From Aureimonas sp. Leaf427 (lineage in GTDB: Bacteria > Pseudomonadota > Alphaproteobacteria > Rhizobiales > Rhizobiaceae), in contig NZ_LMQW01000001.1 of assembly GCF_001425485.1 (NCBI RefSeq), positions 409,016 through 473,015 of the forward strand: a stretch of 64,000 bases of DNA, given 5' to 3'. Below the pieces are notes generated by a model. It saw only the letters and a list, made by a program, of their open reading frames with translations. It did not search any database and was not told where the DNA came from. A program made the position numbers and the translations under genes. Below are positions 14,903 to 29,255 of this stretch, piece after piece. How positions within the stretch are numbered: the stretch's first letter is position 1; each line of letters opens with the position of its first letter.

Positions 14903-16402
14903 TCAGTCTTCCTGCTGCTGGAAGCGCTCGAGCCCCTTGAGGATGAACGGCGCGATCAGCGCTAGGGCGGCGATGCCGAGCAGCGTGGCCGAGCCCGGAT
15001 TCTCCAGGAGGATCATCGGATCGCCGAGGCTCATCTGGAGCGAGCGGCGCAGCTGCGCGTCGGCCATCGGCCCGAGGATCAGGCCGACGACGGCCGGTGC
15101 GACCGGATAGTCGTAGCGGCGCATGAAGAAGCCGATGAAGCCGAAGGCGACGAGGATGCCGAGTTCGACAGCCGAGGGATTGGCCGCGACCGTGCCCATG
15201 GCCGCGAAGACCAGGATGCCGGCATAGAGCCAGGGCAGCGGCACCGCGAGGAGACGCACCCAGAGCCCGATCAGCGGCAAGTTCAGGATCACCAGCATGA
15301 CATTGGCGATGAAGAGGCTGGCGATGAGGCCCCAGACCAGATCCGGCGAGGTCGCGAAGAGGAGCGGACCCGGCTGGAGGCCGTATTGCTGGAAGCCGGC
15401 CAGCATGATCGCCGCGGTCGCCGAGGTCGGCAGGCCGAGCGTCAGGAGCGGCACGAGCGTGCCCGCGGCGGAGGCGTTGTTGGCGGCCTCCGGCCCCGCG
15501 ACGCCCTCGATCGCACCATGGCCGAACTCTTCCGGGTTCTTCGACAGGCGGCGCTCGGTCGCGTAGGACAGGAAGGTCGGGATCTCGGCGCCGCCCGCGG
15601 GCAGCGCGCCGATGGGGAAGCCGAAGGCGGTGCCGCGCAGCCAGGGCTTCCACGACCGCTTCCAGTCCTCCTTGGTCATCCAGAGCGAGCCCTTGATCGG
15701 GATCGGCTTTTCCGGGCTGTGGAGATGGCGCGAGGCCACATAGAGCGCCTCGCCGATGGCGAAGAGACCGACGGCGAGCGTCGTCACTTCGATGCCGTCG
15801 AGAAGCTGCGGCACGCCGAAGGTCATGCGCGCCTGCCCCGTCAACTGATCGATGCCCATGAGGCCGAGCAGGAGACCGAAGGCGAGACTCGTGAGGCCCC
15901 GGAGCGGCGAGGAGCCGAAGGTCGCCGCCACCGTCACGAAGGCGAGGATCATCAGCGCGAAATAGTCCCAGGGACCGAAGCCGACCGCGATCTTGACGAG
16001 GAGGGGCGCCAGGAAGGCGAGGCCGAGCGTCGCGAGCGTGCCGGCGACGAAGGAGCCGATCGCAGCCGTGGCGAGTGCCGGGCCGCCGCGTCCCGCGCGC
16101 GCCATCCGGTTGCCTTCGAGCGCAGTGACGACCGAGGCGCTTTCACCCGGCGTGTTCAGAAGGATCGCGGTCGTCGACCCGCCATACATGCCGCCATAGT
16201 AGATGCCGGCGAACATGATGATCGAGCCGCCGGGATCGAGCTTGAAGGTGACCGGCAGGAGCAGCGCGACGGTCAGCGCCGGGCCGATGCCGGGCAGGAC
16301 GCCGACGAGCGTGCCGAGCAGGACGCCGATCGTGGCGAAGAGGAGGTTGGTCGGCTCGAGGGCGACCAGAAAGCCGTTGCCGAGGGCGAAGAAGGACTCC
16401 AT
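14903..16402 (-). CDS. tctA: Tripartite tricarboxylate transporter, large permease TctA
   Basis: A 499-residue membrane protein with about 11-12 helices and the usual TctA length. It has the family signatures [17 protein letters not shown] (about residues 34-50) and [21 protein letters not shown] (split here; about 67-87). TctA and TctB form the inner-membrane carrier that takes a carboxylate from the periplasmic TctC using an ion gradient. It is the last gene of tctCBA and starts ten bases after tctB. The substrate (citrate, tartrate, terephthalate or another acid) cannot be told from sequence. Confidence 0.94.
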
Positions 16403-16412
16403 CGCGGGCGCC

Positions 16413-16886
16413 TCAGAGAAGCCGCTCGAGCGGGCCCTGCGGCAGGGTCAGCGAGAGAAGGTTGTTGAAGAGGAGGAAGACGACGAAGGCGATGGCGAAG
16501 CCGATCGCCATGTCCGTCGGGAAGGCGCGGCGGCCGAAGGCGCGCGCGGTCATCGCGAAGAGCAGCATGGCGCCGAGAATGAACCCGCCGCCGAGCGCGA
16601 TGACGGCGATCAGCGCGAAGAGCCCGCCGGCGACCCAGCCGAAGCCTTTCCAGTCCGCCTCGTCCGGCACGGGCAGTCCGCCGCGGAAGGCGGTGACGAA
16701 ATGGGCGAGCGCGAGGCCCCCGAAGAAGACGACGAGCACGCGCGGCATGGCGGTCGGCCCGATCCCGTAGGTCGCGCCCTTCGACATGTGGCTCGCATCG
16801 TAGAAGATCAGCGCGGCCACACCCAGGAGGATGAGGCCGATGATCGCGGCGGGGCGGTCGAAGGACCGCGTCTTCACTGTCGGCAT
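16413..16886 (-). CDS. tctB: Tripartite tricarboxylate transporter, small subunit TctB
   Basis: A 157-residue protein with four predicted membrane helices, the normal size and topology for TctB. These subunits are poorly conserved; the call rests on topology and on the position between tctC and tctA. It has an N-terminal helix ([19 protein letters not shown]) and a C-terminal helix that ends in [18 protein letters not shown]. Confidence 0.9.
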
Positions 16887-16911
16887 CTCGGCCTCCCCCC
16901 AGATAAGGAAA

Positions 16912-16936
16912 CGGCGCGGAATGCCATCCCGCGCCG
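16912..16936 (-). terminator. Intercistronic hairpin between tctC and tctB
   Basis: CGGCGCGGA (16912-16920) pairs with TCCCGCGCCG (16927-16936) with one bulge. On the minus strand TTTCCTT follows. Placed right after tctC, it could end or attenuate transcription so that the binding protein is made in excess over the membrane subunits. Confidence 0.5.
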
Positions 16937-16950
16937 CTTCTCGATTCGTG

Positions 16951-17931
16951 TCAGTCGGCGAGGCCGATGGTCTTCAGGACGTCGTGGACGCGGGTGTTCT
17001 CGGACGTGACGAACGTCGCGAACTCGTCCGCGTTCGCATAGTAGTCGCTCCAGCCGCGCGCCTTCAGCACCTCGGCCCACTCCGGCGACTTCACGGCCTT
17101 CTCGACGACGCCGGACAGCTTGGCCTTGTCCTCGGCCGAGATGTTGGGGCCGGCGAAGAGGCCGCGCCAGTTCACGACCTCGACGTCGATGCCCTGCTCC
17201 TTCAGCGTGGGAACGTCGACGCCGGCGAAACGCTCGGGCGAGGAGACCGCGAGCGCGCGAAGATCGCCCGACTTGATCTGGCCCTCGAACTCGCCATAGC
17301 CGGAAATGCCCGCCGTGACGCGCCCGCCGAGCATGGCGGCCAGCGCCTCGCCGCCGCCGGAAAAGGCGACGTAGTTGATCTGCGCAGGATCAGCCCCGGC
17401 GGCCTTGGCGAAGAGCGCGGCGAGGATGTGGTCGGCACCGCCCGCCGAGCCGCCGGCCCAGAGCGTGCCCGCCGTGTTGTCCTTCACCGCCTTGGCGAGA
17501 TCCTGAATGGTCTTCAGCTCGGAATCCTTCGGCACCACGATGACGAGCGGATCGCCCGTGAGGCGCGCAAGCGGCGTGACCTGAGAGAGATTGACCGGCG
17601 ACTTGTTGGAGATGATCGCGCCGACCATCACGAGGCCGCCGACCATCACGTCGCTGCCGCTGCCGTCGGCGGAGTTGACGAACTGGGCGAGGCCCACCGT
17701 TCCGCCGGCGCCGGCGACGTTCGTCACCTGCACGCTGCGCACGGCGCCGGTCTGCGTCAGAACCTGCTGGAGCGAGCGGGCGGCGGAATCCCAGCCGCCG
17801 CCGGCCGCGGCGGGCGCCAGGATCTTCAGCTCCGGCAGGACCTCCTGCGCGAAGGCCGAGAGCGGGGTCGACGCCAAGAGGGCGGCCGCACCGAAGGCCG
17901 CGATGACACGGCGGCGATTGAGTTCGAACAT
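16951..17931 (-). CDS. tctC: Tripartite tricarboxylate transporter, periplasmic binding protein TctC
   Basis: A 326-residue protein with a signal peptide (residues 1-28, ends SAFAQ). The mature part has the TctC/Bug fold features: PAAAGGGWDSAARSLQ near the start, the loop NVAGAGGTVGLAQF, and WAGGSAGGADHILAALFAK. It captures a carboxylated ligand and hands it to TctA/TctB. A strong Shine-Dalgarno (GGGAGGAT) precedes the ATG. Bug-type binding proteins are often numerous in a genome; this one is the dedicated partner by operon position. Confidence 0.93.
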   Translation of the reverse strand: MFELNRRRVIAAFGAAALLASTPLSAFAQEVLPELKILAPAAAGGGWDSAARSLQQVLTQTGAVRSVQVTNVAGAGGTVGLAQFVNSADGSGSDVMVGGLVMVGAIISNKSPVNLSQVTPLARLTGDPLVIVVPKDSELKTIQDLAKAVKDNTAGTLWAGGSAGGADHILAALFAKAAGADPAQINYVAFSGGGEALAAMLGGRVTAGISGYGEFEGQIKSGDLRALAVSSPERFAGVDVPTLKEQGIDVEVVNWRGLFAGPNISAEDKAKLSGVVEKAVKSPEWAEVLKARGWSDYYANADEFATFVTSENTRVHDVLKTIGLAD

Positions 17932-18299
17932 GCGAGATCCTCCCGAGGATGGTCCGGTCGGCCGACCTCCCGCCGGCCCTTCATTCCCGACCTTCTAGAG
18001 ACAGGACAAACCGGTGCCAATGCCGGAAAGCGCCCATCCCCTCATGATTTAGGCCTATGCGATCGAGGATTGCATTGGAAGAGACGCGAAAGCAACGCCT
18101 CGGCCGCCCGGATCGGCCCGATTCCGGGAATCGCGGACGGCGCCGATCCACAGCCTCGGAGCCGTCCGCCAAGCTTATGGTTGACATATGTCGGGCAGGC
18201 GTCGAAACTTGTCGAATTGAGCGCGGGCCTTCGGGAGAGGACGGCGCCAGACATCGCAGCGTCGGCTCAGCCGGCGCGCCGTCCGGGAGGGTCGGTCAT
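17932..18299. other. 368-base divergent intergenic region (tctC / polyol operon)
   Basis: Holds the promoters of the minus-strand tctCBA and the plus-strand ABC-dha operon. The visible element is a perfect palindrome (18183-18192). A GGGAGGG Shine-Dalgarno at 18285-18291 precedes the ABC ATPase start. An in-frame upstream extension of the ATPase reading frame covers part of this region but looks non-coding. No RNA gene seen. Confidence 0.5.
18181..18192 (+). promoter_or_regulatory. Promoter/operator element of the ABC-dha operon
   Basis: TTGACA (18181-18186) overlaps the perfect ten-base palindrome GACATATGTC (18183-18192), 108 bases upstream of the first gene. A -35 box overlapped by a symmetrical site is a plausible target for the SorC-type regulator encoded at the end of the operon. 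No convincing -10 is seen at 17 bases. Confidence 0.4.
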
Positions 18300-19778
18300 T
18301 TGGAATCCTTGCTGAAGGTCGAGGGGCTGAAGAAGTCCTTCGGCGGCGTTGCCGCCCTTCGAGACGGGCGTTTCGAGCTGGCGCCGGGCTCGGTCCATGC
18401 GCTGTGCGGCGGCAACGGCGCGGGCAAGTCCACCTTCCTCTCGATCGTCATGGGCATTCAGAAGCGCGACGCCGGCACGATCTGGCGGCGCGGGCGCGAG
18501 GTCGAGTTCGCCAGCCCCGCCGAGGCGCTGGCCTCCGGCATCGCGATCATCGAGCAGGAGCTGAGCCCGGTTCCGCACATGACCGTCGCCGAGAACATCT
18601 ATCTCGGCCGCGAGCCCTCCGGCCGCTTCGGCGGCATCGACTTCAAGGCCATGAACCGCGCGGCGCAGGACGTGCTCGACGATCTCGAATTCGACATCCA
18701 CGCGGACCAGCCGATGGCGCGCCTCTCGGTCGCGCAGATGCAGCTCGTCGAGATCGCCAAGGCGCTCAGCCACGACGCCGAAGTGATCTTCATGGACGAG
18801 CCGACCTCGGCCATCGGCGAGCGCGAGGCCCAGCACCTCTTCTCCGCCATTGAGCGGCTGAAGGCCCAGGGGCGCGGCATCGTCTACGTCTCGCACCGCC
18901 TGTCGGAAATCTTCCAGATCGCCGACAGCTTCACGGTCTTTCGCGACGGCGCCTATGTCGAGAGCGGCGCGCTGAAGGACGTGGCGCGGCCCGATCTCAT
19001 CCGCATGATCGTCGGACGCGAGCTCGGCGAGGAGTACATCAAGACCAACGCACCCACCGAGACCGTCGGCCTCGAGGTCGAGAAGCTCGGCAGCCGCGGC
19101 AAGATCGAGGACATTTCCTTCCAAGTCCGCAAGGGCGAGATCCTCGGCATCTACGGCCTGATGGGCTCCGGCCGCACGGAGATTTTCGACTGCCTCTTCG
19201 GCCTCGACCGCCGCGCGGAGGGGCGCATCCTTCTGGAGGGACGGGAGGTCGCCATCGCCAAGCCCGCCGACGCGATGCGCGAAGGGCTTGCCCTCGTCAC
19301 CGAGGATCGCAAGCAGACCGGCCTCAACCTCTCCGACAGCGTGCGCGGCAATATCGCGCTGGCGAGCCTGCCGGAGATGAGCCCGGCCTTCGTCATGCGC
19401 GGGCGCGACGAGGCCGAGGCGAGCCGCTCGATGATCGAGCGCTTCGCCATCAAGGCCGCGCGCGACACGATGCCGGTCTCGGGCCTTTCGGGCGGAAACC
19501 AGCAGAAGGTCGTGCTCGGCAAGTGGTTTCTGCGCAACCCGCGCGTGCTCCTTCTCGACGAGCCGACGCGCGGCGTCGATGTCGGCGCCAAGCGCGAGAT
19601 CTACCGGGTCATCTGCGACTTCGCGGCCGGCGGCGGCACCGTCGTCATGATCTCGTCGGAGATCGACGAGGTGCTCGGGCTGAGCGACCGCATTCTGGTG
19701 ATGCGGGCGGGGCGCTCGGCCGGCATCCTCGACCGCGCCGAGGCGAGCGCCCAGTCGCTCGTCCATCTTTCGACCTGA
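18300..19778 (+). CDS. RbsA-type sugar/polyol ABC importer ATPase (two ATPase domains)
   Basis: A 492-residue double ATPase of the ribose/xylose class. Domain 1 has Walker A GGNGAGKST (about residues 38-46), signature LSVAQMQ and Walker B VIFMDEPTS. Domain 2 has the degenerate Walker A GLMGSGRTE usual for RbsA, an intact LSGGNQQK signature and VLLLDEPTRGVDVGAK. Start set at TTG 18300: it has a GGGAGGG Shine-Dalgarno eight bases upstream and gives the family N-terminus (LESLLKVEGLKKSFGG). It energises the permease and binding protein encoded next. Confidence 0.93.
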   Translation: MESLLKVEGLKKSFGGVAALRDGRFELAPGSVHALCGGNGAGKSTFLSIVMGIQKRDAGTIWRRGREVEFASPAEALASGIAIIEQELSPVPHMTVAENIYLGREPSGRFGGIDFKAMNRAAQDVLDDLEFDIHADQPMARLSVAQMQLVEIAKALSHDAEVIFMDEPTSAIGEREAQHLFSAIERLKAQGRGIVYVSHRLSEIFQIADSFTVFRDGAYVESGALKDVARPDLIRMIVGRELGEEYIKTNAPTETVGLEVEKLGSRGKIEDISFQVRKGEILGIYGLMGSGRTEIFDCLFGLDRRAEGRILLEGREVAIAKPADAMREGLALVTEDRKQTGLNLSDSVRGNIALASLPEMSPAFVMRGRDEAEASRSMIERFAIKAARDTMPVSGLSGGNQQKVVLGKWFLRNPRVLLLDEPTRGVDVGAKREIYRVICDFAAGGGTVVMISSEIDEVLGLSDRILVMRAGRSAGILDRAEASAQSLVHLST

Positions 19779-19852
19779 CGCTTCGATCGCCGCGCCTCCC
19801 GCGAAGGGAGCAGCGCCGGCAGACTTCATCCGACATGCAGCGGGAGACAAGC

Positions 19853-20857
19853 GTGTCCAATATCGAAACCAAGGCCGGACCGGGCTGGCTCGGCGCCGAG
19901 AGGCGCCGCCTCCTGATCCAGGAATACGGCATCTTTCTCGCCTTCCTGATCCTCGTCGTCATCCTCGCCTTTTCCAACGAGTATTTCCTGACCGCGGGCA
20001 ATATCTCGAACGTCCTCCTGCAGACCTCGATCAACGGCATCCTCGCGATCGGCATGACCTTCGTGATCCTGACGCGCGGCATCGATCTCTCGGTCGGCTC
20101 CGTCGTGGCGCTGGCGGGCATGGTCAGTGCCAGCTTCGTCACGACCTCGGCGACGGCCGGCGTCGCGGGCGGGCCCTATCCGGTGATCCTGGCGCTCGCC
20201 ATCGGCATTCTCGTCGGCGTGGCGAGCGGCGCGATCGTCGGGCTCATCGTCTCGCGCTTCTCCGTCCCCGCCTTCGTCGCGACGCTCGGCATGCTCTCGG
20301 CGGCGCGCGGGATGACGCTGATCTACGGCGGCGGCAAGCCGGTGCCGGGCCTCGTGCCCGCCTTCCGCTGGATCGGCACGGGCAACGTCTTCGGCATTCC
20401 GATGCCGGTCGTCATCCTCGCCGCCGTCTTCGCTCTGTCCTGGTGGGTCCTGACGCGCACGCGCTTCGGCCGCTACATCTATGCCGTCGGCGGCAATCCG
20501 CATGCGGCCAAGACGTCCGGCATCGACGTCGGGCGCATCCGCTTCCTCGTCTACGTCATTTCCGGAGCGCTCTCGGGCCTTGCCGGCATGATCCTTTCGG
20601 CGCGCACGGGCTCGGCCCTGCCCCAGGCCGGCATCGCCTACGAGCTCGACGCGATCGCGGCCGTCGTCATCGGCGGAACCAGCCTGTCCGGCGGCGTCGG
20701 CCGCGTCACGGGAACGCTGATCGGCGCGCTCATCATCGGCGTGATGAACAACGGGCTCGATCTCCTCGGCATGCAATCCTACTACCAGCAGATCCTGAAG
20801 GGCGCCCTCATCGTCGGCGCGGTCATGCTGGACCAGAAGCGAAATCACGGCGGCTGA
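19853..20857 (+). CDS. RbsC-type sugar/polyol ABC importer permease
   Basis: A 334-residue membrane protein with about ten helices and the family motifs ILTRGIDLSVGSVVALAGM (about residues 72-90) and the ATPase-contact loop region AVGGNPHAAKTSGID (about 211-225). GTG at 19853 is preferred because CGGGAGA precedes it; an ATG six codons upstream (19835) has no Shine-Dalgarno but remains possible. It forms a homodimeric channel with the preceding ATPase. The gene sits 74 bases after the ATPase gene. Confidence 0.92.
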   Translation: MSNIETKAGPGWLGAERRRLLIQEYGIFLAFLILVVILAFSNEYFLTAGNISNVLLQTSINGILAIGMTFVILTRGIDLSVGSVVALAGMVSASFVTTSATAGVAGGPYPVILALAIGILVGVASGAIVGLIVSRFSVPAFVATLGMLSAARGMTLIYGGGKPVPGLVPAFRWIGTGNVFGIPMPVVILAAVFALSWWVLTRTRFGRYIYAVGGNPHAAKTSGIDVGRIRFLVYVISGALSGLAGMILSARTGSALPQAGIAYELDAIAAVVIGGTSLSGGVGRVTGTLIGALIIGVMNNGLDLLGMQSYYQQILKGALIVGAVMLDQKRNHGG

Positions 20858-20966
20858 ACCCAAAGGGTTCGCGCGCCGCGACGCATTCGGGCCGGCGGGG
20901 AGCCGGCCGGAAACACCGGGAGCCGCCATGACGGCGGCACCCGATTCAACGGGAGGACTGACATCC

Positions 20967-21950
20967 ATGAAGAAGCTCATGCTCGCATTCGCGATGGCCT
21001 CGGCGCTCTACGCGCCCTCCGCCATCGCCCAGGAGAAGCTGAAGATCGGCGCGACCGTCTACGGCCTCAACGCCGAGTTCATGCAGATCTGGACCGCGGC
21101 GCTCCAGAAGCACCCGGCGGTGGCCAGCGGCGAAGTCGAAGTGACCGTGTTCGACGGCCGCTACGACGCGCTCGTCCAGCAGGAACAGTTCAACACGATG
21201 ATCACGCAGAAGTATAACGCGATCATCTTCGTGCCCATGGACGTGGAAGCCGGCGCCGCCCCCGTCCAGGCCGCCGTCGATGCCGGCATTCCGGTCGTCG
21301 GCTCCAACGCCCGCGTCAATTCCGACGTGCTCACCGCCTATGTCGGCTCCAACGACGTCGAGGCCGGCGAGCTGGAGGCCAAGGCCGTGCTCGACAAGCT
21401 CGGCTGCAAGGGCAACATCGTCATCATCGAGGGCCCGATCGGCCAGTCCGGCCAGATCCAGCGCCTCGAAGGCAACCAGAAGGCGCTCGCCAACTGCCCC
21501 GACGTGAAGGTGCTGGAGCAGCAGACCGGCAACTGGTCCAGAGCCGAGGCGCAGACGCTGATGGAGAACTGGCTGACCTCGCATCCCGGCCAGATCAACG
21601 GCGTGATCGGCCAGAACGACGAGATGGCGCTCGGCGCGATCGAGGCGATCAAGGCGGCCGGCCTCAAGGTCGAGGACTTCGCCATCGCCGGCGTCGATGG
21701 CGTGACGGATGCGATCACGGCGGTGAAGGAAGGCCAGATGGCCTCGATCCTGCAGGACGCGAACGCCCAGGCGCAAGGCGCGCTCGACATCGCCATCAAG
21801 GCCGCCAAGCCCGACTACGAGCCGCAGTCCCCCATCTGGAAGCAGTATCCCTCCATGCAATGGGCGGACGGCAAGGCCAAGGACTACCTCGTTCCCTGGA
21901 CCCCCGTGACGACCGCCAACGCGGACCAGCTCCTCGAATCCCGCAAGTAA
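20967..21950 (+). CDS. RbsB-type periplasmic sugar/polyol-binding protein
   Basis: A 327-residue protein with a signal peptide of about 22 residues (MKKLMLAFAMASALYAPS, then AIAQ). The mature part is a type I periplasmic-binding fold with FVPMDVEAGAAPVQAAVDAGIP and GQNDEMALGAIEAIKAAG motifs. The ATG at 20967 has GGGAGG ten bases upstream; an earlier in-frame ATG would put 13 residues before the signal peptide. The dehydrogenase and kinase genes downstream suggest a ligand such as a C3-C4 polyol or ketose; the ligand itself is unknown. Confidence 0.92.
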   Translation: MKKLMLAFAMASALYAPSAIAQEKLKIGATVYGLNAEFMQIWTAALQKHPAVASGEVEVTVFDGRYDALVQQEQFNTMITQKYNAIIFVPMDVEAGAAPVQAAVDAGIPVVGSNARVNSDVLTAYVGSNDVEAGELEAKAVLDKLGCKGNIVIIEGPIGQSGQIQRLEGNQKALANCPDVKVLEQQTGNWSRAEAQTLMENWLTSHPGQINGVIGQNDEMALGAIEAIKAAGLKVEDFAIAGVDGVTDAITAVKEGQMASILQDANAQAQGALDIAIKAAKPDYEPQSPIWKQYPSMQWADGKAKDYLVPWTPVTTANADQLLESRK

Positions 21951-22044: not shown

Positions 22045-22818
22045 ATGAGCGACAGCGCACCCACGGTGGATCTCGACTTCTCGCTGGCCGGCAAGGTGGC
22101 CCTCGTCACCGGCGGCGGCTCCGGCATCGGCGCGGCCATCGCCTCGGCCTATGCCAGGAAGGGCGCCAGGGTCGCCGTCCTCGACATCCAGACCGACCTC
22201 GCCGAAGCCCATGCGCGCTCGATCGGCGGCGGCGCCAAGGCCTTCCGCTGCGACGTCTCCGACAAGGCCTCCGTCGATGCGGCCGTCGCCGGCGTGGTGG
22301 AGGATTTCGAGCGGATCGACATCGCGGTGAACAGCGCTGGCATCGTCGCGCTCGCCCCGGCCGAGGATCTCGGCCTCGACGCCTGGACGAAGACCATCGC
22401 CATCAACCTCACCGGCACGTTCCTCGTCTGCCAGGCCGTCGGCCGCGTGATGATCGCGGCGGGCCGGGGCGGCAAGATCGTCAACCTCGCCTCGCAGGCC
22501 GGCACGGTGGCGATCGACGAGCACGCGGCCTACTGCGCCTCGAAGTTCGGCGTCATCGGCCTGACGAAGACGCTCGCCGCCGAATGGGGCCGCCACAAGA
22601 TCACCGTCAATTCCATTTCGCCGACGATCGTCCTCACCGATCTCGGCCGCAAGGCCTGGGCCGGCGAGAAGGGCGAGGCCGCCAAGGCCCGCATTCCGAT
22701 GGGCCGCTTCGCCTATCCGGAAGAGATCGCCGCCTCCGCCGTGTTCCTCGCCTCCAACGGCGCCGACATGATCAACGGGGCCGACCTCCTCGTCGACGGC
22801 GGCTACACGATCCTCTGA
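22045..22818 (+). CDS. Short-chain polyol dehydrogenase, D-threitol dehydrogenase-like
   Basis: A 257-residue SDR enzyme. The NAD loop TGGGSGIG is at residues 22-29, the NNAG equivalent is NSAG (96-99), and the catalytic Ser150, Tyr163 and Lys167 are present. It should oxidise a polyol to a ketose (or the reverse). Its place between a polyol-type importer and dihydroxyacetone-kinase subunits parallels the D-threitol and erythrulose pathways described in Mycobacterium smegmatis, where an SDR (DthD) feeds a Dha-type kinase. The exact polyol is inferred, not shown. Confidence 0.82.
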   Translation: MSDSAPTVDLDFSLAGKVALVTGGGSGIGAAIASAYARKGARVAVLDIQTDLAEAHARSIGGGAKAFRCDVSDKASVDAAVAGVVEDFERIDIAVNSAGIVALAPAEDLGLDAWTKTIAINLTGTFLVCQAVGRVMIAAGRGGKIVNLASQAGTVAIDEHAAYCASKFGVIGLTKTLAAEWGRHKITVNSISPTIVLTDLGRKAWAGEKGEAAKARIPMGRFAYPEEIAASAVFLASNGADMINGADLLVDGGYTIL

Positions 22819-22974: not shown

Positions 22975-23970
22975 ATGCAGCGTTTCATCAACAATCCCGA
23001 CGAGGTCGTCGAGGACACCGTCAAGGGCTTCGTGAAGGCCCACCGGGACCTCGTGCGCCTTTCGGAGCGCAACCCGCGCGTCGTCGCCTCCGCCTTCGCC
23101 CCCGTCTCCGGCAAGGTCGGCGTCGTGACGGGCGGCGGATCGGGCCACGAGCCCGCCTTCATCGGCTATACCGGCCGCAACATGCTGGACGCGGTGGCCG
23201 TCGGCGAACTCTTCTCCTCGCCGACCGCCCGCAGCTTCCACGACGCGATCAAGGAAGCCGACGGCGGCGCGGGCGTCGTCTGCCTCTACGGCAATTATGC
23301 CGGCGACAACATGAACGTGAAGATGGCGAAGAAGCTCGCCGAGAAGGACGGGATCGCGGTCGCGACCGTCGTCGCCAACGACGACGTCTGCTCGGCCGGG
23401 CCGGAGGAGCGCGAGAAGCGCCGGGGCGTGGCGGGCGAGATCTTCCTCTGGAAGATCGGCGGCGCGAAGGCCGCGGAGGGCGCGTCCCTCGAAGAGGTCC
23501 GCGCCACCGCCCAGCGCGCGATCGACGCCTGCCGCTCCATCGGCGTCGGCCTCGGCCCCTGCACCCTGCCGGCCGTCGGCCACCCCAACTTCCAGATCGA
23601 GCCTGGCACGATGGAGGTCGGCATCGGCCATCACGGCGAGCCCGGCATCCGCGTGGAGCCTTTGAAGACGGCCGCCGAGGTGGCGCGCGACATGGCGAAG
23701 ATCGTCCTCGACGACCACGCCCTGCCCGCGGGCACCGAGGTCGCCGTCCTCGTCTCGGGCCTCGGCGCGACGCCGCTGAACGAGCTCTACATTCTGAACG
23801 ACACGATCGAGACCGAGATCGTCGCGCGCGGCCTTTCGATCCACCGCACCTATGTCGGCAACTACTTCACCTCGCTGGAAATGGTCGGCGCGACGCTGAC
23901 GGTTCTGGCCCTCGACGACGAGCTGAAGCGCCTCTTGGATGCCGAGGCGCGCTGCCCGGCCATGGCATGA
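22975..23970 (+). CDS. dhaK: Dihydroxyacetone kinase-type subunit DhaK
   Basis: A 331-residue DhaK-fold protein. It starts MQRFINNPDEVVEDTVKGF and has the substrate loop TGGGSGHEPAFIGY (about residues 52-65), YGNYAGDNMNVKMA and ANDDV. His220 in GHHGEPG is the residue that binds the ketose carbonyl covalently in this family. It needs DhaL to supply the phosphoryl group; dhaL overlaps its stop by four bases. The substrate is dihydroxyacetone or a related ketose such as erythrulose. No PTS-type dhaM is in the window. Confidence 0.92.
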   Translation: MQRFINNPDEVVEDTVKGFVKAHRDLVRLSERNPRVVASAFAPVSGKVGVVTGGGSGHEPAFIGYTGRNMLDAVAVGELFSSPTARSFHDAIKEADGGAGVVCLYGNYAGDNMNVKMAKKLAEKDGIAVATVVANDDVCSAGPEEREKRRGVAGEIFLWKIGGAKAAEGASLEEVRATAQRAIDACRSIGVGLGPCTLPAVGHPNFQIEPGTMEVGIGHHGEPGIRVEPLKTAAEVARDMAKIVLDDHALPAGTEVAVLVSGLGATPLNELYILNDTIETEIVARGLSIHRTYVGNYFTSLEMVGATLTVLALDDELKRLLDAEARCPAMA

Positions 23971-24632
23971 CCGGGGAAACCACCATGCAGCACCTTCCCA
24001 ATGCCGGCTCCGGCGGCATCGTCACCGCGATGGCCGAGCGGATCGTCGCCAACAAGGCCTATCTCTCCGAGATCGACGGCAAGATCGGCGACGGCGACCA
24101 CGGCGTGAACATGGCCAAGGGCTTCGGCATGGCCGCCGAGCGCCTCGCCGGCAAGGACGCCTCGCTGGGGCAAGCCTTCGCGGCCTTGAGCGAAGTCCTG
24201 ATGGGCGAGATCGGCGGCTCCATGGGGCCGCTCTACGGCATGATGTTCACTGAATTCTCCGATGCGATCGAGGGCAAGGACGCGATCGATCCGCAGACCT
24301 TCGGCGCCATGCTGCGCGCGGGGCTGGAGGGCGTGCAGTCCATCGGCTCGGCCAAGCTCGGCGACAAGACCATGCTCGACGCCTTCATTCCCGCCAGCGA
24401 GGCCTTCGACGCGACGATCGAAAGCGGCGCCTCCTTCGCCGATGCGCTCGCCGCGATGGAGTCCGCCGCCGAGACCGGCCGTGATTCCACGATCGATCTC
24501 GTGGCGAAGATCGGCCGCGCCGCCCGGCTCGGCGAGCGCTCGCGCGGCGTGCTCGATGCAGGCGCCACCTCCTGCGCGCTGATCCTGAAGACGCTCGGCG
24601 AGGGCGCCGCGAGCCGGCTGACCGATGGCTGA
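23967..24632 (+). CDS. dhaL: Dihydroxyacetone kinase-type subunit DhaL (nucleotide-binding)
   Basis: A 221-residue all-helical DhaL protein. The Mg-nucleotide Asp residues are in EIDGKIGDGDHGVNMAKG (Asp37, Asp42, Asp44), and GEIGGSMGPLYGMMF is the conserved loop. It passes a phosphoryl group to the ketose bound on DhaK. ATGA overlap with dhaK shows coupled translation. Because dhaM is absent here, it may use ATP directly, as stand-alone Dha-type kinases do; a remote dhaM cannot be excluded. Confidence 0.92.
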   Translation: MTGETTMQHLPNAGSGGIVTAMAERIVANKAYLSEIDGKIGDGDHGVNMAKGFGMAAERLAGKDASLGQAFAALSEVLMGEIGGSMGPLYGMMFTEFSDAIEGKDAIDPQTFGAMLRAGLEGVQSIGSAKLGDKTMLDAFIPASEAFDATIESGASFADALAAMESAAETGRDSTIDLVAKIGRAARLGERSRGVLDAGATSCALILKTLGEGAASRLTDG

Positions 24633-24728
24633 ACGCCGGCGCGGAGCCCGGCGGAAGGCTTGACGCGGGGCGGCCGGGCCGGTTTCTGAAGCGAGCCGCT
24701 CGAGCCTTCGAGCCGGAGGAGCACCACG

Positions 24729-26849
24729 CTGGCCAAGATCGTCGCAGGGGAGAAGGTCGAAGCCGCGCCGGCGCCGGCCAGGAGCCGGTCCAGGACGGCC
24801 GGCGGCGATGCGGCCGGGTCGGTCCCGCTGCGCTTCGGCGACGATCCGCAGCTCTGGGCCTCCTGGCTCTACTACGAGGACGGCCTCACCCAGAACGAGA
24901 TCGCCGAGGCCATGGGCCTGTCGCGCGCCACGGTCAACGCGACGCTGGCCGAGGCACGCGAGCGCGGCGTCGTCACGATCGCCATCGATCCGCAGAGCCT
25001 CTCCGCGCTCGACCTCGCGGAAGGCGTGAAGCGCCATTTCGGCCTCTTCGACTGTCTCGTCGTGCCGAGCGGCGGCCCGCCTGGACAGCTCATCGAACGG
25101 CTCGGCACCGCCGGGGGCCTTGCGCTCCGCCGCTTCGTGCGCTCGGGCGACACGGTCGCGGTCGCCTGGGGGCGCACGGTCCTCGCCATCGCCCGCGCGC
25201 TGCGCATTCCCGGCCTGCAGGATGTCCGCGTCGTGCAGGCGACGGGCGCCATGGCCTCCGGCGCGCCCTTCTCGCCGGAGCTTTGCGCAGGCGCCCTGGC
25301 CGAGGCGCTCGGCGCCTCGCATGTGCCCATCACCGCGCCGAGCGTCGTCTCGTCGGCCGCCATGCGCGACATGCTGCTCGCCGAGCCCCTTCTGCAGGCG
25401 CAGTTCGCCGCGCTGGACGGCGCGAACCGGGCGGTCTTCGGCATCTCCTCGCTCCGGCCGAACTCCACGATCCAGTCGAGCGGCCTCTTCGATTCCGTCT
25501 CGATCCAGGACTATCTCGCGCGCAATGCCGTCGGCGTCGTCGCCGGCCGCTTCGTCAACGCGCAGGGCAAGCCCGTCGCCGGCCCGCTCGACGAGCGCAC
25601 GATCGGCCTCTCGCTGGAAAAGCTGCGCACCATCGAGCGGCGGATCGCGGTGGCCGGCGGCTTCGACAAGGTCCCGGCCATCCTCGCGGCCCTGCGCGGC
25701 GGCCTCGCCGACGTTCTGGTGACGGATGCCGCGACCGCCAAGGGCCTGCTCGACGCAGACGGCGCGGCGCCCCTCCCCGCGCGCCGGCCGAACCGGGCGC
25801 CCCTGCCCACGAGCCCTCCCGTCGAGGCCGGCTCGACGCGCCGGCAGGTCAAGAAGTTCCTGAACGATCCGAACGACGTCGTGGACGAGATGCTGGACGG
25901 GGCGCTGCGCGCGCACCGCCGGCACATCGCCCTCGTGCCCGGCACGCACCGCGCGGTGATGGCGCGGGAGACGCCCGCGCCCGGTCAGGTCGCGCTCGTC
26001 GTCGGCGGCGGGTCCGGCCACGAGCCCTGCTTCCTCGGCTATGTCGGGTCGGGACTGGCGGCGGCGGCGGTCGTCGGCAACATCTTCTCCTGCCCGCCGC
26101 CGGACCCGATCCTGAAGGCGGCGCAAGCGGTCTCGACCGGGAAAGGCGTCCTCTTCGTCTACGGCAACTATGCCGGCGACACGATGAACTTCGAGATGGC
26201 CGCCGATCTCGCAACGGAAGCCGGCCTTGCCGTGCGCACGGTGGTCACGACCGACGACGTCGCCTCCTCCTCCCCGGAGGATCGGGACGGGCGCCGGGGC
26301 GTCGCGGGCAATGTCTTCGTCTTCAAGGTGGCGGGCGCGGCCTGCGCGGCCGGCCTCTCGCTCGACGACTGCGCCCGGCTCGCCGCCAAGGCCAACCGGC
26401 GGTCCTATACGATGGGCGTCGCGCTGGAGCCCTGCTCGATGCCCCAGAGCCGGCGCACCAGCTTCGCGCTCGGACCCGACGACATGGAGGTCGGCGTCGG
26501 CATCCATGGCGAGCCCGGCGTCGCGCGCGAGCCCCTGCGCCCCGCCGATTCCGTGGTCGACGCCATGATGGACCGCATCCTCGGCGAGATGCCGTCGAAA
26601 TCGGGCGACCGGGTCGCCGTCCTCGTCAACTCCTTCGGCGGCACGCCGCTGATGGAGCTCTACGTCCTCTATCGCCGCGTCGAGCAGCGCCTCGCCGCGC
26701 GCGGCGTCGCGGTCGAGCGGAGCCTCATTGGGCACTACTGCACCGCGCTCGACATGACGGGCGCCTCGATCTCGCTCCTCCATCTCGACGAGGAGCTGAC
26801 GCGCCTTCTCGACGCGCCCTGCGACGCGCCCTTCCTGCGGATCGGGTAA
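24729..26849 (+). CDS. SorC-family regulator fused to a DhaK domain
   Basis: About 706 residues counted from CTG 24729. Residues 52-82 form a helix-turn-helix (GLTQNEIAEAMGLSRATVN), residues 95-345 a SorC sugar-phosphate-binding domain, and residues 372-706 a complete DhaK domain with TCGGGSGHEP-like loop GGGSGHEPCFLGY, YGNYAGDTMNFEMA and the ketose-binding His593 (GVGIHGEPG). No ATG, GTG or TTG lies in frame between the stop at 24687 and the ATG at 24912, which would cut the helix-turn-helix. CTG 24729 has GGAGGAG at 24714-24720 upstream. The protein probably senses ketose or its phosphate and controls this operon. Confidence 0.88.
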   Translation: MAKIVAGEKVEAAPAPARSRSRTAGGDAAGSVPLRFGDDPQLWASWLYYEDGLTQNEIAEAMGLSRATVNATLAEARERGVVTIAIDPQSLSALDLAEGVKRHFGLFDCLVVPSGGPPGQLIERLGTAGGLALRRFVRSGDTVAVAWGRTVLAIARALRIPGLQDVRVVQATGAMASGAPFSPELCAGALAEALGASHVPITAPSVVSSAAMRDMLLAEPLLQAQFAALDGANRAVFGISSLRPNSTIQSSGLFDSVSIQDYLARNAVGVVAGRFVNAQGKPVAGPLDERTIGLSLEKLRTIERRIAVAGGFDKVPAILAALRGGLADVLVTDAATAKGLLDADGAAPLPARRPNRAPLPTSPPVEAGSTRRQVKKFLNDPNDVVDEMLDGALRAHRRHIALVPGTHRAVMARETPAPGQVALVVGGGSGHEPCFLGYVGSGLAAAAVVGNIFSCPPPDPILKAAQAVSTGKGVLFVYGNYAGDTMNFEMAADLATEAGLAVRTVVTTDDVASSSPEDRDGRRGVAGNVFVFKVAGAACAAGLSLDDCARLAAKANRRSYTMGVALEPCSMPQSRRTSFALGPDDMEVGVGIHGEPGVAREPLRPADSVVDAMMDRILGEMPSKSGDRVAVLVNSFGGTPLMELYVLYRRVEQRLAARGVAVERSLIGHYCTALDMTGASISLLHLDEELTRLLDAPCDAPFLRIG

Positions 26850-26954: not shown

Positions 26955-27437
26955 TCACTGCGGCAGCAGCGCGTCCCGCGACCGGAGGACCAGCGTCTCG
27001 CCGCCCCGGCGCAGCGTCACGCGCTGCGGCTCGATGGCGCTCACCGTCCAGCCACCGATTGCGCTGCCGATGCCCTGCCAACCCTCGCCGCCGGCGAACA
27101 TGACCTTGCGCGCCGATCCTCCGACGAGAATGCCGGCGATCCGCGCCGGCGCCTCCGCGACGGGCGCGAGATCGACGACAGGTTCCACACCGCTCGGCAG
27201 GACGGCCGTCTCGTCGACCGGGCGATGCTGCACGTCGAAAGGCGAGGCCCGGCGATAGGCGCCCTCGACGGCGGAGCCGGGCGGCGTCGGCAGAGCGACG
27301 CCCGCGCGCCCCGCCCCGTCGGAGCGGCCGGGCACGACCGGCACGAGCGCGGCAGCGGCGATCGCGAGGAGGCCGAGGGCGAGCGTCGCGGCGGCGAAGC
27401 GGTCGGAGCGGCGCGACTGCGACAGGCGTATCGTCAT
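26955..27437 (-). CDS. Type II secretion GspC/PilP-like HR-domain protein
   Basis: A 160-residue protein with one N-terminal membrane helix (about residues 14-35). A linker follows, then a small beta domain at about residues 98-155 (AGILVGGSARKVMFAGGEGW and TVSAIEPQRVTLRRGGETLVL) that matches the homology region of GspC and PilP, which contacts the secretin periplasmic domain. No PDZ domain follows. Some annotations call this GspN. It overlaps gspM by four bases (ATGA) and would link the inner-membrane platform to GspD. Confidence 0.72.
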   Translation of the reverse strand: MTIRLSQSRRSDRFAAATLALGLLAIAAAALVPVVPGRSDGAGRAGVALPTPPGSAVEGAYRRASPFDVQHRPVDETAVLPSGVEPVVDLAPVAEAPARIAGILVGGSARKVMFAGGEGWQGIGSAIGGWTVSAIEPQRVTLRRGGETLVLRSRDALLPQ

Positions 27438-28000
27438 GGCGATGCCGTCGGAAAGGGCACGGCGGAGAGGATCGCCGTGCCGCGGGCCACGCGCACGGAG
27501 CCGTCGAGCGCGCTCTTCACGGAGAGCTCGCGCACGCGCACGAAGGGCGGCCGCGTCTCGAGATCGGCGAGGAAGGCGTAGAGCCCGCTCTCGGTCGCGG
27601 AAAAGCCGAGCTGGACCTCCACCGGGGCGCCCGGCTTCTCCTTGGGCGTCCCCGGCCGTTCATCCCGAGGTAAAGGAGCGAGGCTTTCGATCCGCAACCT
27701 GTCTGGCGCGACCACGCCGGAAAGCCGCGCCTGCAGCGCCTCCAGCGCCGCGCCGGCATCGGCCGCGACGAGGAAGGGCGGGTTAGCGACGGCGGCGAGC
27801 GAGGCGAGGGACGCGCGCCGCGCCTCCAGCCGGTCGAGGCGCTCGAGCAGCGCGGCCTCCGTCTCGATCGCCTCGGCGCGCTCGCCGAACCCCGTAAAGG
27901 GCGAGACGAGAAGCGGCACCGAGAGGACGAGGAGAAGCGCCAGAATCGCCAGCGCCGCGAGGCGGCGGGCGAGCGGCGAGCGGGCGAAAAGCTCCGTCAT
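27434..28000 (-). CDS. gspM: Type II secretion platform protein GspM
   Basis: A 188-residue inner-membrane protein. It has one N-terminal membrane helix (about residues 13-33), then a coiled coil (AIETEAALLERLDRLEARRA), then a ferredoxin-like periplasmic domain (about 75-180) with the FSATESGLYAFLADLETRPP motif of the GspM family. Start chosen at ATG 28000, which overlaps the gspL stop by four bases; a longer upstream reading is antisense or out-of-frame noise. With GspL it holds the ATPase at the membrane. Confidence 0.85.
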   Translation of the reverse strand: MTELFARSPLARRLAALAILALLLVLSVPLLVSPFTGFGERAEAIETEAALLERLDRLEARRASLASLAAVANPPFLVAADAGAALEALQARLSGVVAPDRLRIESLAPLPRDERPGTPKEKPGAPVEVQLGFSATESGLYAFLADLETRPPFVRVRELSVKSALDGSVRVARGTAILSAVPFPTASP

Positions 28001-29103
28001 GCGCCGGGCCCCGGCAGCGCCCCGCGCGGGGACGGCGCGGGAAGGGTCAGGACCAGCGTTCCGACCGCGCCCTCCATGGCCTCGACGCTTGCGAAGAAGG
28101 GGCTGGCGGCGAGCGCGGCCCGCGTCTTCGCCGCATCGCCGCCCTCCGTCGACAGGACGAACTGCCCCTTGCCGAGCGGCCCGGCGCCGAACTGGAACCG
28201 CGTCAGATGCACGTTGGACGGCAGTCGCGTTGCGATGTCGTCGAGGAGATAGGCGACGGGAACCTGCCGCCCGAAGCTCTCCAGCGCATCCGCGACGGCG
28301 GAGGCGGCGCGCGCGGCCGCGCCGGGCGAAAGGGCCACGGCCCGCTCGAGGGACAGCTCGGCCAGCGCCGCCTCCTGGCGGGCGGCCACGACGAAGGGCG
28401 CGGCGAGGACGAGAAGCGCGGCCAGCGCCACGACCGCCTTCGACCGGCGCGGCAGCCGCGCCAGAAAAGCGCCGAGCGTCGGATCGCGCCCGTCCATCAG
28501 ATCGACCGGCATCATGCGCCCCTCGGCCTCGCCGACGGTCAGCCGCGTCAGGGTCAGGCCCGCCCCGCCCAGCAGCTCCGCGACGCCGGCGATGCGCGAG
28601 CGCGCCAGGACGACCTGCACCAGCTGCAGCTCGCGCGTCGCGGGGTCCTCGGCCTCGACATACCAGTCGGAGAGAAGATCGGCGGCGGCGAGCGGCATCA
28701 GCTCCTCGATCTCGGCCTTCAGGATCGCGCCCGCATGGGAGAGCGCCCGACCCGGAATGCGCGTGCGCCTGACGAGGCAGAGCGAGACCGGCACGGAGAG
28801 CCGCACGCTGCGCCGGCCGGTGCTGCCGACGAGCGCCGCCACATGGGCCGCGAGCAACTCGGACGGCGCCATCGCCTCCGCCTCGCCCGGCAGAGGCGCC
28901 TTGGCATGGGTAAGCCTTGCGAAGGCGATGCTCCCGTCCTCGAAGAGCGAGCAGCCGAAGGCGGCGGGCGCGGCGACCGTTCGCGCCTTCAGGCTGTCCG
29001 GCACGAGGCCGCGCAGTTCGGCAAGCCACCAGCGCGGCAGCGAACCGAGCGTGTCGCCGACACTTCCGCCTCCCGCCCCGCCGCTGCCCCGCCCCTCGAC
29101 CAC
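27997..29103 (-). CDS. gspL: Type II secretion platform protein GspL (PilN-like C-terminus)
   Basis: A 368-residue protein beginning at GTG 29103. The N-terminal cytoplasmic part (about residues 40-235) has the actin-like GspL/PilM fold features. One membrane helix at about residues 243-263 (KAVVALAALLVLAAPFVVAA) follows, then a PilN-like periplasmic domain with a helical repeat and LPSNVHLTRFQFGAGP. It recruits GspE to the membrane. It is the first gene of the minus-strand gspL-M-C set and diverges from gspE across 152 bases. Confidence 0.85.
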   Translation of the reverse strand: MVEGRGSGGAGGGSVGDTLGSLPRWWLAELRGLVPDSLKARTVAAPAAFGCSLFEDGSIAFARLTHAKAPLPGEAEAMAPSELLAAHVAALVGSTGRRSVRLSVPVSLCLVRRTRIPGRALSHAGAILKAEIEELMPLAAADLLSDWYVEAEDPATRELQLVQVVLARSRIAGVAELLGGAGLTLTRLTVGEAEGRMMPVDLMDGRDPTLGAFLARLPRRSKAVVALAALLVLAAPFVVAARQEAALAELSLERAVALSPGAAARAASAVADALESFGRQVPVAYLLDDIATRLPSNVHLTRFQFGAGPLGKGQFVLSTEGGDAAKTRAALAASPFFASVEAMEGAVGTLVLTLPAPSPRGALPGPGA

Positions 29104-29255
29104 CCGTCAAGCTCCCGTCCGATCTTTCGTCCATCAATGCTCACGAAACCTCTACGGATTACTGAAGACGCTCGCGGACCCTGCCGGGAGCCCCCTCGCA
29201 AGGCTCGTCGGAGGCGTGGCCCCCCTGTCGGGCAAGACGGGCAAGAGAGGAACCG

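Follow-up and report, generated by a model that had tools for sequence, protein, structure and literature searches.

The window, i.e. the 64,000-nucleotide stretch of Aureimonas sp. Leaf427 DNA analysed here, encodes a SorC-family transcriptional regulator fused in a single chain to a complete DhaK domain that retains the active-site residues of DhaK; a conserved candidate operator precedes its operon, and the second dhaL gene (dhaL2), which adjoins every other continuous fusion surveyed, is missing. We lean slightly towards the view that a SorC regulator of its own operon has been chained to the DhaK subunit of a second kinase, that the two would be coupled, by analogy with DhaK proteins acting on regulators elsewhere, and that the copy in the window is an orphan which either borrows the DhaL subunit encoded upstream (DhaL1) or acts in sensing. 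The fusion is probably a repressor of its own operon, comprising an ABC transporter, a GolD/DthD-type dehydrogenase, dhaK1, dhaL1 and the fusion gene itself, and would bind the palindrome of site 1 (Table 1) and the weaker copy further on. Across the family, the fused DhaK half and its dedicated DhaL2 would constitute a second ketose kinase; the state of the DhaK half (empty, ketose-loaded or DhaL-bound) would be transmitted to the DNA-binding half, and the SorC pocket would read the phosphorylated product. In this genome, the DhaL2 of this copy would have been lost and the DhaK half may draw on DhaL1 or may only sense the ketose, the latter in the manner of DhaQ or of E. coli DhaK acting on DhaR.

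Cases in which an enzyme controls its own gene are usually assembled from separate proteins; here, the parts lie in one chain in many alphaproteobacteria. The natural loss of the partner, together with the candidate operator, makes the question of sensing versus catalysis by the kinase half directly testable, and the analysis provides a candidate function for a protein that is named in public records.

The organisation that had been predicted, with helix-turn-helix, SorC effector domain and full DhaK domain in one frame, is borne out, as are the separate dhaK and dhaL genes upstream (Table 1). The frame is open from stop to stop over 24690-26849 (719 codons), and translation from 24729 gives 706 amino acids. 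In the comparison with Pfam, Sugar-bind (PF04198) matched residues 93-341 with 195 bits (cut-off 27) and Dak1 (PF02733) residues 391-701 with 400 bits (cut-off 31). The helix-turn-helix, the PF04198 match and Foldseek matches to 2w48, 8r7y and 4go1 place the protein in the SorC family, DeoR, SorC and LsrR being the PDB relatives of the SorC half; SorC followed by DhaK in one chain, with adjoining dha-type genes, identifies it as a bifunctional SorC/DhaK protein. The Foldseek search returned E. coli DhaK, Lactococcus DhaQ, SorC, DeoR and LsrR, the DhaK half aligning with E. coli DhaK (3pnk) at 44% identity. The AlphaFold model, built with a 46-row alignment, has high confidence in the effector and DhaK domains, about 65-71 in the helix-turn-helix and below 50 in the linker at residues 352-372; its pTM is 0.53 and therefore the relative arrangement of the two halves is not predicted. 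Two well-folded halves joined by a loose linker are consistent with the preferred reading.

Table 1. Positions in the window of the candidate operator sites, the genes of the operon and the domains of the fusion
Feature	Positions	Strand	Remarks
Candidate operator site 1, TTGACATATGTCGG	18181..18194	+	Conserved palindrome
Weaker candidate operator site 2, TCGAAACTTGTCGA	18202..18215	+	4 mismatches; 21 bp on from site 1
ABC ATPase	18300..19778	+	Start probably TTG at 18300 rather than the ATG of the mechanical ORF
ABC permease	19835..20857	+	Start uncertain, with ATG at 19835 a candidate
ABC sugar-binding protein	20928..21950	+	Orthologs in related operons
SDR polyol dehydrogenase, GolD/DthD family	22045..22818	+	NF005309, 393 bits (cut-off 286)
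dhaK1, stand-alone DhaK	22975..23970	+	PF02733, 372 bits
dhaL1, DhaL subunit	23967..24632	+	TIGR02365, above cut-off
SorC-DhaK fusion gene	24729..26849	+	Start taken at CTG 24729; 706 aa
Helix-turn-helix, residues 38-92	24840..25004	+	HTH-like Pfam models at residues 46-88
SorC effector (sugar-phosphate) domain, residues 93-341	25005..25751	+	Sugar-bind PF04198
Flexible linker, residues 352-372	25782..25844	+	pLDDT <50 in the model
DhaK domain, residues 374-704	25848..26840	+	Dak1 PF02733; Foldseek alignment to 3pnk

The start of the fusion gene is likely to be the CTG at 24729, as judged from the sequence. No ATG, GTG or TTG occurs in the fusion frame upstream of 24912, the earliest standard in-frame start, which sits inside the helix-turn-helix; the CTG is favoured since a start at 24912 would remove the first half of this motif. 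A GGAGGAG sequence lies at 24715-24721, seven bases ahead of the CTG. Most relatives have an ATG, GTG or TTG 15-38 residues ahead of the conserved DDPxLW block; L181 is among those that have none, L097 and L183 being unsuitable for this comparison.

The fusion survey started from 100 sources, which yielded 84 distinct SorC-DhaK loci and, among these, 81 continuous fusions including the one in the window; some of the 84 rows are near-identical, L017 and L023 for instance being two strains of one species. Three loci were dropped: L096 was rejected as its frame is broken by stops, and L102 and L103 were rejected as they carry separate adjacent genes with SorC at 27% identity. The SorC and DhaK domains are separated by 24-35 residues in all 81 continuous fusions. 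At E-values of 1e-130 or better the fusion query matched 28 of 397 genomes sampled for the order, 66 of 394 for the family and 3 of 6 for the genus, counts that include the genome under study and some matches covering the DhaK half only; at 1e-150, the class sample gave one match among 385 genomes and the phylum sample 5 among 398. In PLSDB, 327 plasmid records matched at 1e-60, and in 103 of them a single place spans 80% of the query or more. The name given to several is 'bifunctional sugar-binding transcriptional regulator/dihydroxyacetone kinase subunit DhaK'; others are labelled DhaK or bear no feature. The fusion is thus common across rhizobia and their relatives and has a database name already, and the novelty that the original prediction had attached to the architecture does not hold. 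No paper on a SorC-DhaK fusion was found in the literature searched, which lay mostly outside subscription journals.

The original prediction had also called for a search for the fusion across genomes with its neighbours tabulated, and it is here that the window differs from its relatives. A dhaL2 gene lies within 3 kb on the same strand in 80 of the 81 continuous fusions, the sole exception being the window; the corresponding figure for all candidate loci is 82 of 84, the second exception, L096, being a broken locus that ends 4 bases later. The motif D-G-x-(I/V)-x-D-x-D-H-G, whose aspartates are metal-binding, is present in 83 of the 84 DhaL2 hits. A stand-alone dhaK1 was found within 9 kb in 64 of the 84 loci, all of them among the 81 continuous fusions. 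Of the 17 fusions with no dhaK1 in view, 6 have another unfused DhaK in the operon, and for 11 of the 81 the fusion and DhaL2 are the sole DhaK/DhaL pair in the flanks examined. As DhaL2 adjoins nearly all the fusions and supplies the sole pair in these 11, the DhaK half in the family is most simply a working kinase subunit. The built-in ketose sensor proposed originally is thus not the simplest account of the family, and a sensor or DhaL-sharing role becomes arguable for the window since it alone has no adjoining dhaL2.

A tblastn search of the window with DhaL2 at E-values up to 10 returned only dhaL1 and short chance pieces, with no second dhaL or remnant; a dhaL2 remnant downstream of the fusion, looked for in the same relaxed search, was accordingly rejected. 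The genome search with the DhaL2 of A. ureilytica gave four hits, namely a 53% match on contig C34, dhaL1 at 40%, a 40% match on C13 and a partial match on C12. The C34 protein is the only one with more than 40% identity in the genome and is located beside a second fusion; it could serve the window's fusion in trans. At 26955-29137 on the minus strand, where many relatives have dhaL2, the window carries type II secretion-like genes (GspM/GspL-like by eye), and the loss of dhaL2 may be linked to a rearrangement near these positions.

The DhaK half carries the motifs GGGSGHEP from residue 426, GNYAGD from 479 and GIHGEPG from 591. His431, Asp484 and His593 correspond to E. coli DhaK His56, Asp109 and His218, the last being the covalently binding histidine and all three being active-site residues of that enzyme; His593 is therefore the carbonyl-binding histidine that had been proposed. 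The three equivalents are kept in all 81 rows with letters at these positions, 3 of the 84 rows having gaps. The position of E. coli Ser80 is Cys in the window alone among the fusions (68 Ser, 12 Ala), and Cys also occurs there in 2 of 20 unfused rows. Against the NCBIfam equivalog TIGR02363 the DhaK half scores 386 bits, below the cut-off of 406; the stand-alone dhaK1 scores 352 bits, likewise below, and thus this cut-off does not separate the fused DhaK from dhaK1.

Residues of the SorC half were tabulated for 79 of the 81 fusions, L097 and L183 being omitted as their SorC part is cut short. The helix-turn-helix residues T54, Q55, S65 and R66 are invariant in all 79, as is Lys314, which is equivalent to the lysine at the phosphate end of the LsrR ligand pocket. 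The fusion's SorC half shares the helix-turn-helix, the effector domain and this lysine with LsrR, SorC and DeoR. The LsrR-type pocket also has an aspartate at position 270; it is present in all seven unfused references and in none of the 79 fusions, the window having Val. The four nearest unfused SorC relatives are also without Asp270 and yet keep Gly240, a position at which each of the 79 fusions has Ser, Ala or Cys. Loss of the pocket aspartate was therefore rejected as a hallmark of the fusion, the change probably predating it, and Asp270 was not counted as defining the SorC family since unfused members also lack it.

An operator had been guessed near 18181-18192, and the guess agrees with a palindrome, TTGACAWWTGTCRA, that precedes all 45 orthologous transporter operons, frequently as two copies spaced by 21 bp, the motif having been derived from the same 45 upstream regions in which this count was made. 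SorC-family regulators are expected to act at palindromic, commonly tandem operators in the promoters they control; the sites described here are candidates from sequence comparison. With up to 3 mismatches, TTGACAWWTGTCAA occurs upstream of the orthologous ABC ATPase gene in all 45 loci, with 79 sites over 16.2 kb; the full 1.63 Mb of fusion-locus sequence contains 208 matches, a total that includes these 79 and in which overlaps were not thinned. The exact 21 bp spacing between sites was seen in 21 pairs among the 45 upstream regions. The 36 fusion loci of other layouts were scanned over the 400 bp preceding dhaK1 or the 350 bp preceding the SorC match of the fusion: 20 have a site with up to 3 mismatches (0.9 expected from base shuffles) and 16 one with up to 2 (0.1 expected). 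Such sites precede dhaK1 in, for example, L017, L081, L084, L143, L149, L152, L171 and L172, and the fusion in L178, L179, L180 and L182, with weaker ones in L090, L095 and L134. At the promoters scanned, 16 of the 36 loci, including the second fusion of this genome (L074), have no site with up to 3 mismatches, the best operator-like site near L074 having 4. Among loci with unfused DhaK, none of 7 has a site with up to 2 mismatches in 700 bp upstream, L045 having one with 3. In the genome of 5.43 Mb, site 1 alone matches TTGACAWWTGTCRR without mismatch, and three further sites have a single mismatch. As the predicted site contains a perfect TTGACA, binding of the fusion could block a -35 box; the sigma-70 promoter scan called no promoter at the operator.

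The operon content suggests, from sequence similarity, that a small polyol is oxidised to a ketose and then phosphorylated; conversion of D-threitol to D-erythrulose would be a guess from the name DthD. The ABC ATPase ortholog in L009 starts MQPLLKVEGL, and the family matches start at residue 83 of the longer ORF. A tripartite tricarboxylate transporter is encoded at 14903-17931 on the minus strand (TctA and TctC by Pfam, the small middle gene by position) and, since these genes diverge from the operon, the operator at 18181 may also control them.

Several alternatives to the preferred reading were weighed, mainly with respect to the missing DhaL2 and the rates of change. A tentative one, to which we give distinctly less credence, is that DhaL1 is common to dhaK1 and the fused DhaK, and that the two compete for it, the regulator being adjusted by DhaL in its free or loaded state. 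The gene dhaL1 lies directly upstream of the fusion, no other dhaL was found in the window, and DhaL1 is the other fast-changing protein of the operon, with a mean distance to eight outgroups of 0.807 as compared with 0.46-0.58 for six of seven relatives. In comparisons with a consensus ancestor (15 loci), faster change at p<0.05 was obtained for DhaL1 in 4 of 6 comparisons and for the DhaK half and SorC in 1 of 6 each. The end branch of DhaL1 is 0.335, that of the SDR is intermediate (0.153), and those of dhaK1, the sugar-binding protein and the ATPase are not long, none of these four being clearly fast. However, L019 keeps DhaL2 and its DhaL1 is nearly as fast (mean distance 0.78, end branch 0.308; 16 to 16 in direct comparison with the window), which weakens a simple tie of the fast rates to the loss of DhaL2; moreover, the two kinds of DhaL are about 40% identical and hence cross-pairing is not assured. 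A related possibility, given a similarly guarded degree of belief, is that the DhaK half, after the loss of its own DhaL, has turned into a ligand-sensing or DhaL-counting decoy, by which the promoter would learn from the shared DhaL1 how far the real kinase is charged.

Somewhat more doubtful is a pure ketose sensor, in which the DhaK half of the window no longer phosphorylates after the loss of DhaL2 and would signal just the presence of free ketose to the DNA-binding half, making the protein a one-chain analogue of DhaQ/DhaS. The absence of DhaL2 in the window only would fit this role, as would the end branches in trees of 19 of the 81 rows, long for the DhaK half (0.378; L011 0.080, L019 0.277) and not for the SorC half (0.202; L011 0.218, L019 0.319), the private residues (42 in the DhaK half, 28 in the SorC half) and Ala at residue 553 (E. 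coli 178), where 95% or more of 71 close fusions have Arg. L011, L019, L009 and L014 have the opposite balance of private residues between the halves, and L012 (20 and 16) has the same direction as the window. Against such a sensor, all three active-site residues are present; the window has 5 of 112 conserved DhaK columns altered, similar to L011 (4) and L019 (6), which keep DhaL2; and in relative-rate tests of the DhaK half p<0.05 is reached with 6 of 8 outgroups when the window is compared with L011, with none of 8 when it is compared with L019, and in one of the six consensus-ancestor comparisons above. The DhaK-family score (386 bits) also exceeds that against the DhaQ model TIGR02362 (221 bits, below its cut-off of 413). 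With the rate evidence thus mixed, a clear decay of the DhaK half is not borne out, and the data on the DhaK half and DhaL1 give a hint of changed selection.

That the DhaK half has no regulatory role, being an ordinary kinase subunit joined to an ordinary SorC repressor for co-expression, is improbable. The loose linker of the model would permit it, and there are unfused DhaK2-DhaL2 pairs whose flanks, over the length covered, show no SorC match (L022, L045, L098-L101); however, the join is kept in 81 loci across varied operon layouts, and DhaK proteins do act on regulators, as the PDB titles for E. coli DhaR-DhaK and Lactococcus DhaQ indicate. A sequencing or annotation artefact, for which the missing standard start codon might speak, can be dismissed, because the same unbroken fusion recurs in 80 other distinct loci, and the contig here is 632 kb long in a genome rated 100% complete.

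The preferred reading, a regulator coupled to its attached kinase subunit, has parallels in two systems. DhaQ and the TetR-type DhaS of Lactococcus lactis are separate chains, as are DhaR and DhaK/DhaL of E. coli, where DhaR belongs to another regulator family. Like the fused DhaK half, L. lactis DhaQ is a DhaK-fold protein in transcription (PDB 2iu4, 2iu6), although the window's half, unlike DhaQ, scores higher as DhaK than as DhaQ. In E. coli, DhaK contacts DhaR (PDB titles 4lrx, 4lry), a parallel to the DhaK and regulator fused here, and a passage in PMC6643234 states that DhaR controls dhaKLM in response to DHA. The same architecture as in the window occurs beside dhaK and dhaL in Aureimonas sp. 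AU20 (WP_082639879.1, 73% identity) and S. meliloti (WQP11238.1, 63.5% identity); both these fusions have a second dhaL directly downstream, whereas the window's has none, and the S. meliloti locus has transporter genes of a different kind from those of the window.

In the DhaK tree, dhaK1 forms one clade and the fused proteins form two, of 71 and 10 rows; the clade of 10 groups with 13 unfused DhaK2 proteins (90%). In the SorC tree the two fused clades join (89%). These trees are more simply, and more probably, explained by one fusion event after which some lines lost SorC. In L140, L160, L161 and L168-L170, the fusion adjoins an unfused DhaK2, as if it had been duplicated and one copy had lost SorC. 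The distant SorC genes (27%) beside unfused DhaK in L102 and L103 are a possible parallel to a step preceding fusion.

The second SorC-DhaK fusion of this genome (C34, 89846-91900; L002, L074) is 53% identical to that of the window and has its own dhaL downstream, along with an ABC transporter and PfkB kinase in divergent orientation. L178, of clade B, adjoins a maltose-type ABC transporter, and both L178 and L074 adjoin a PfkB sugar kinase; as these neighbours differ, the substrate probably varies within the fusion family. LsrR, a relative of SorC, binds phospho-AI-2. In L191 (S. meliloti CP140944.1, 6025-10793), the fusion has as its neighbour an ABC transporter with a binding protein that the annotation assigns to the autoinducer-2 type.
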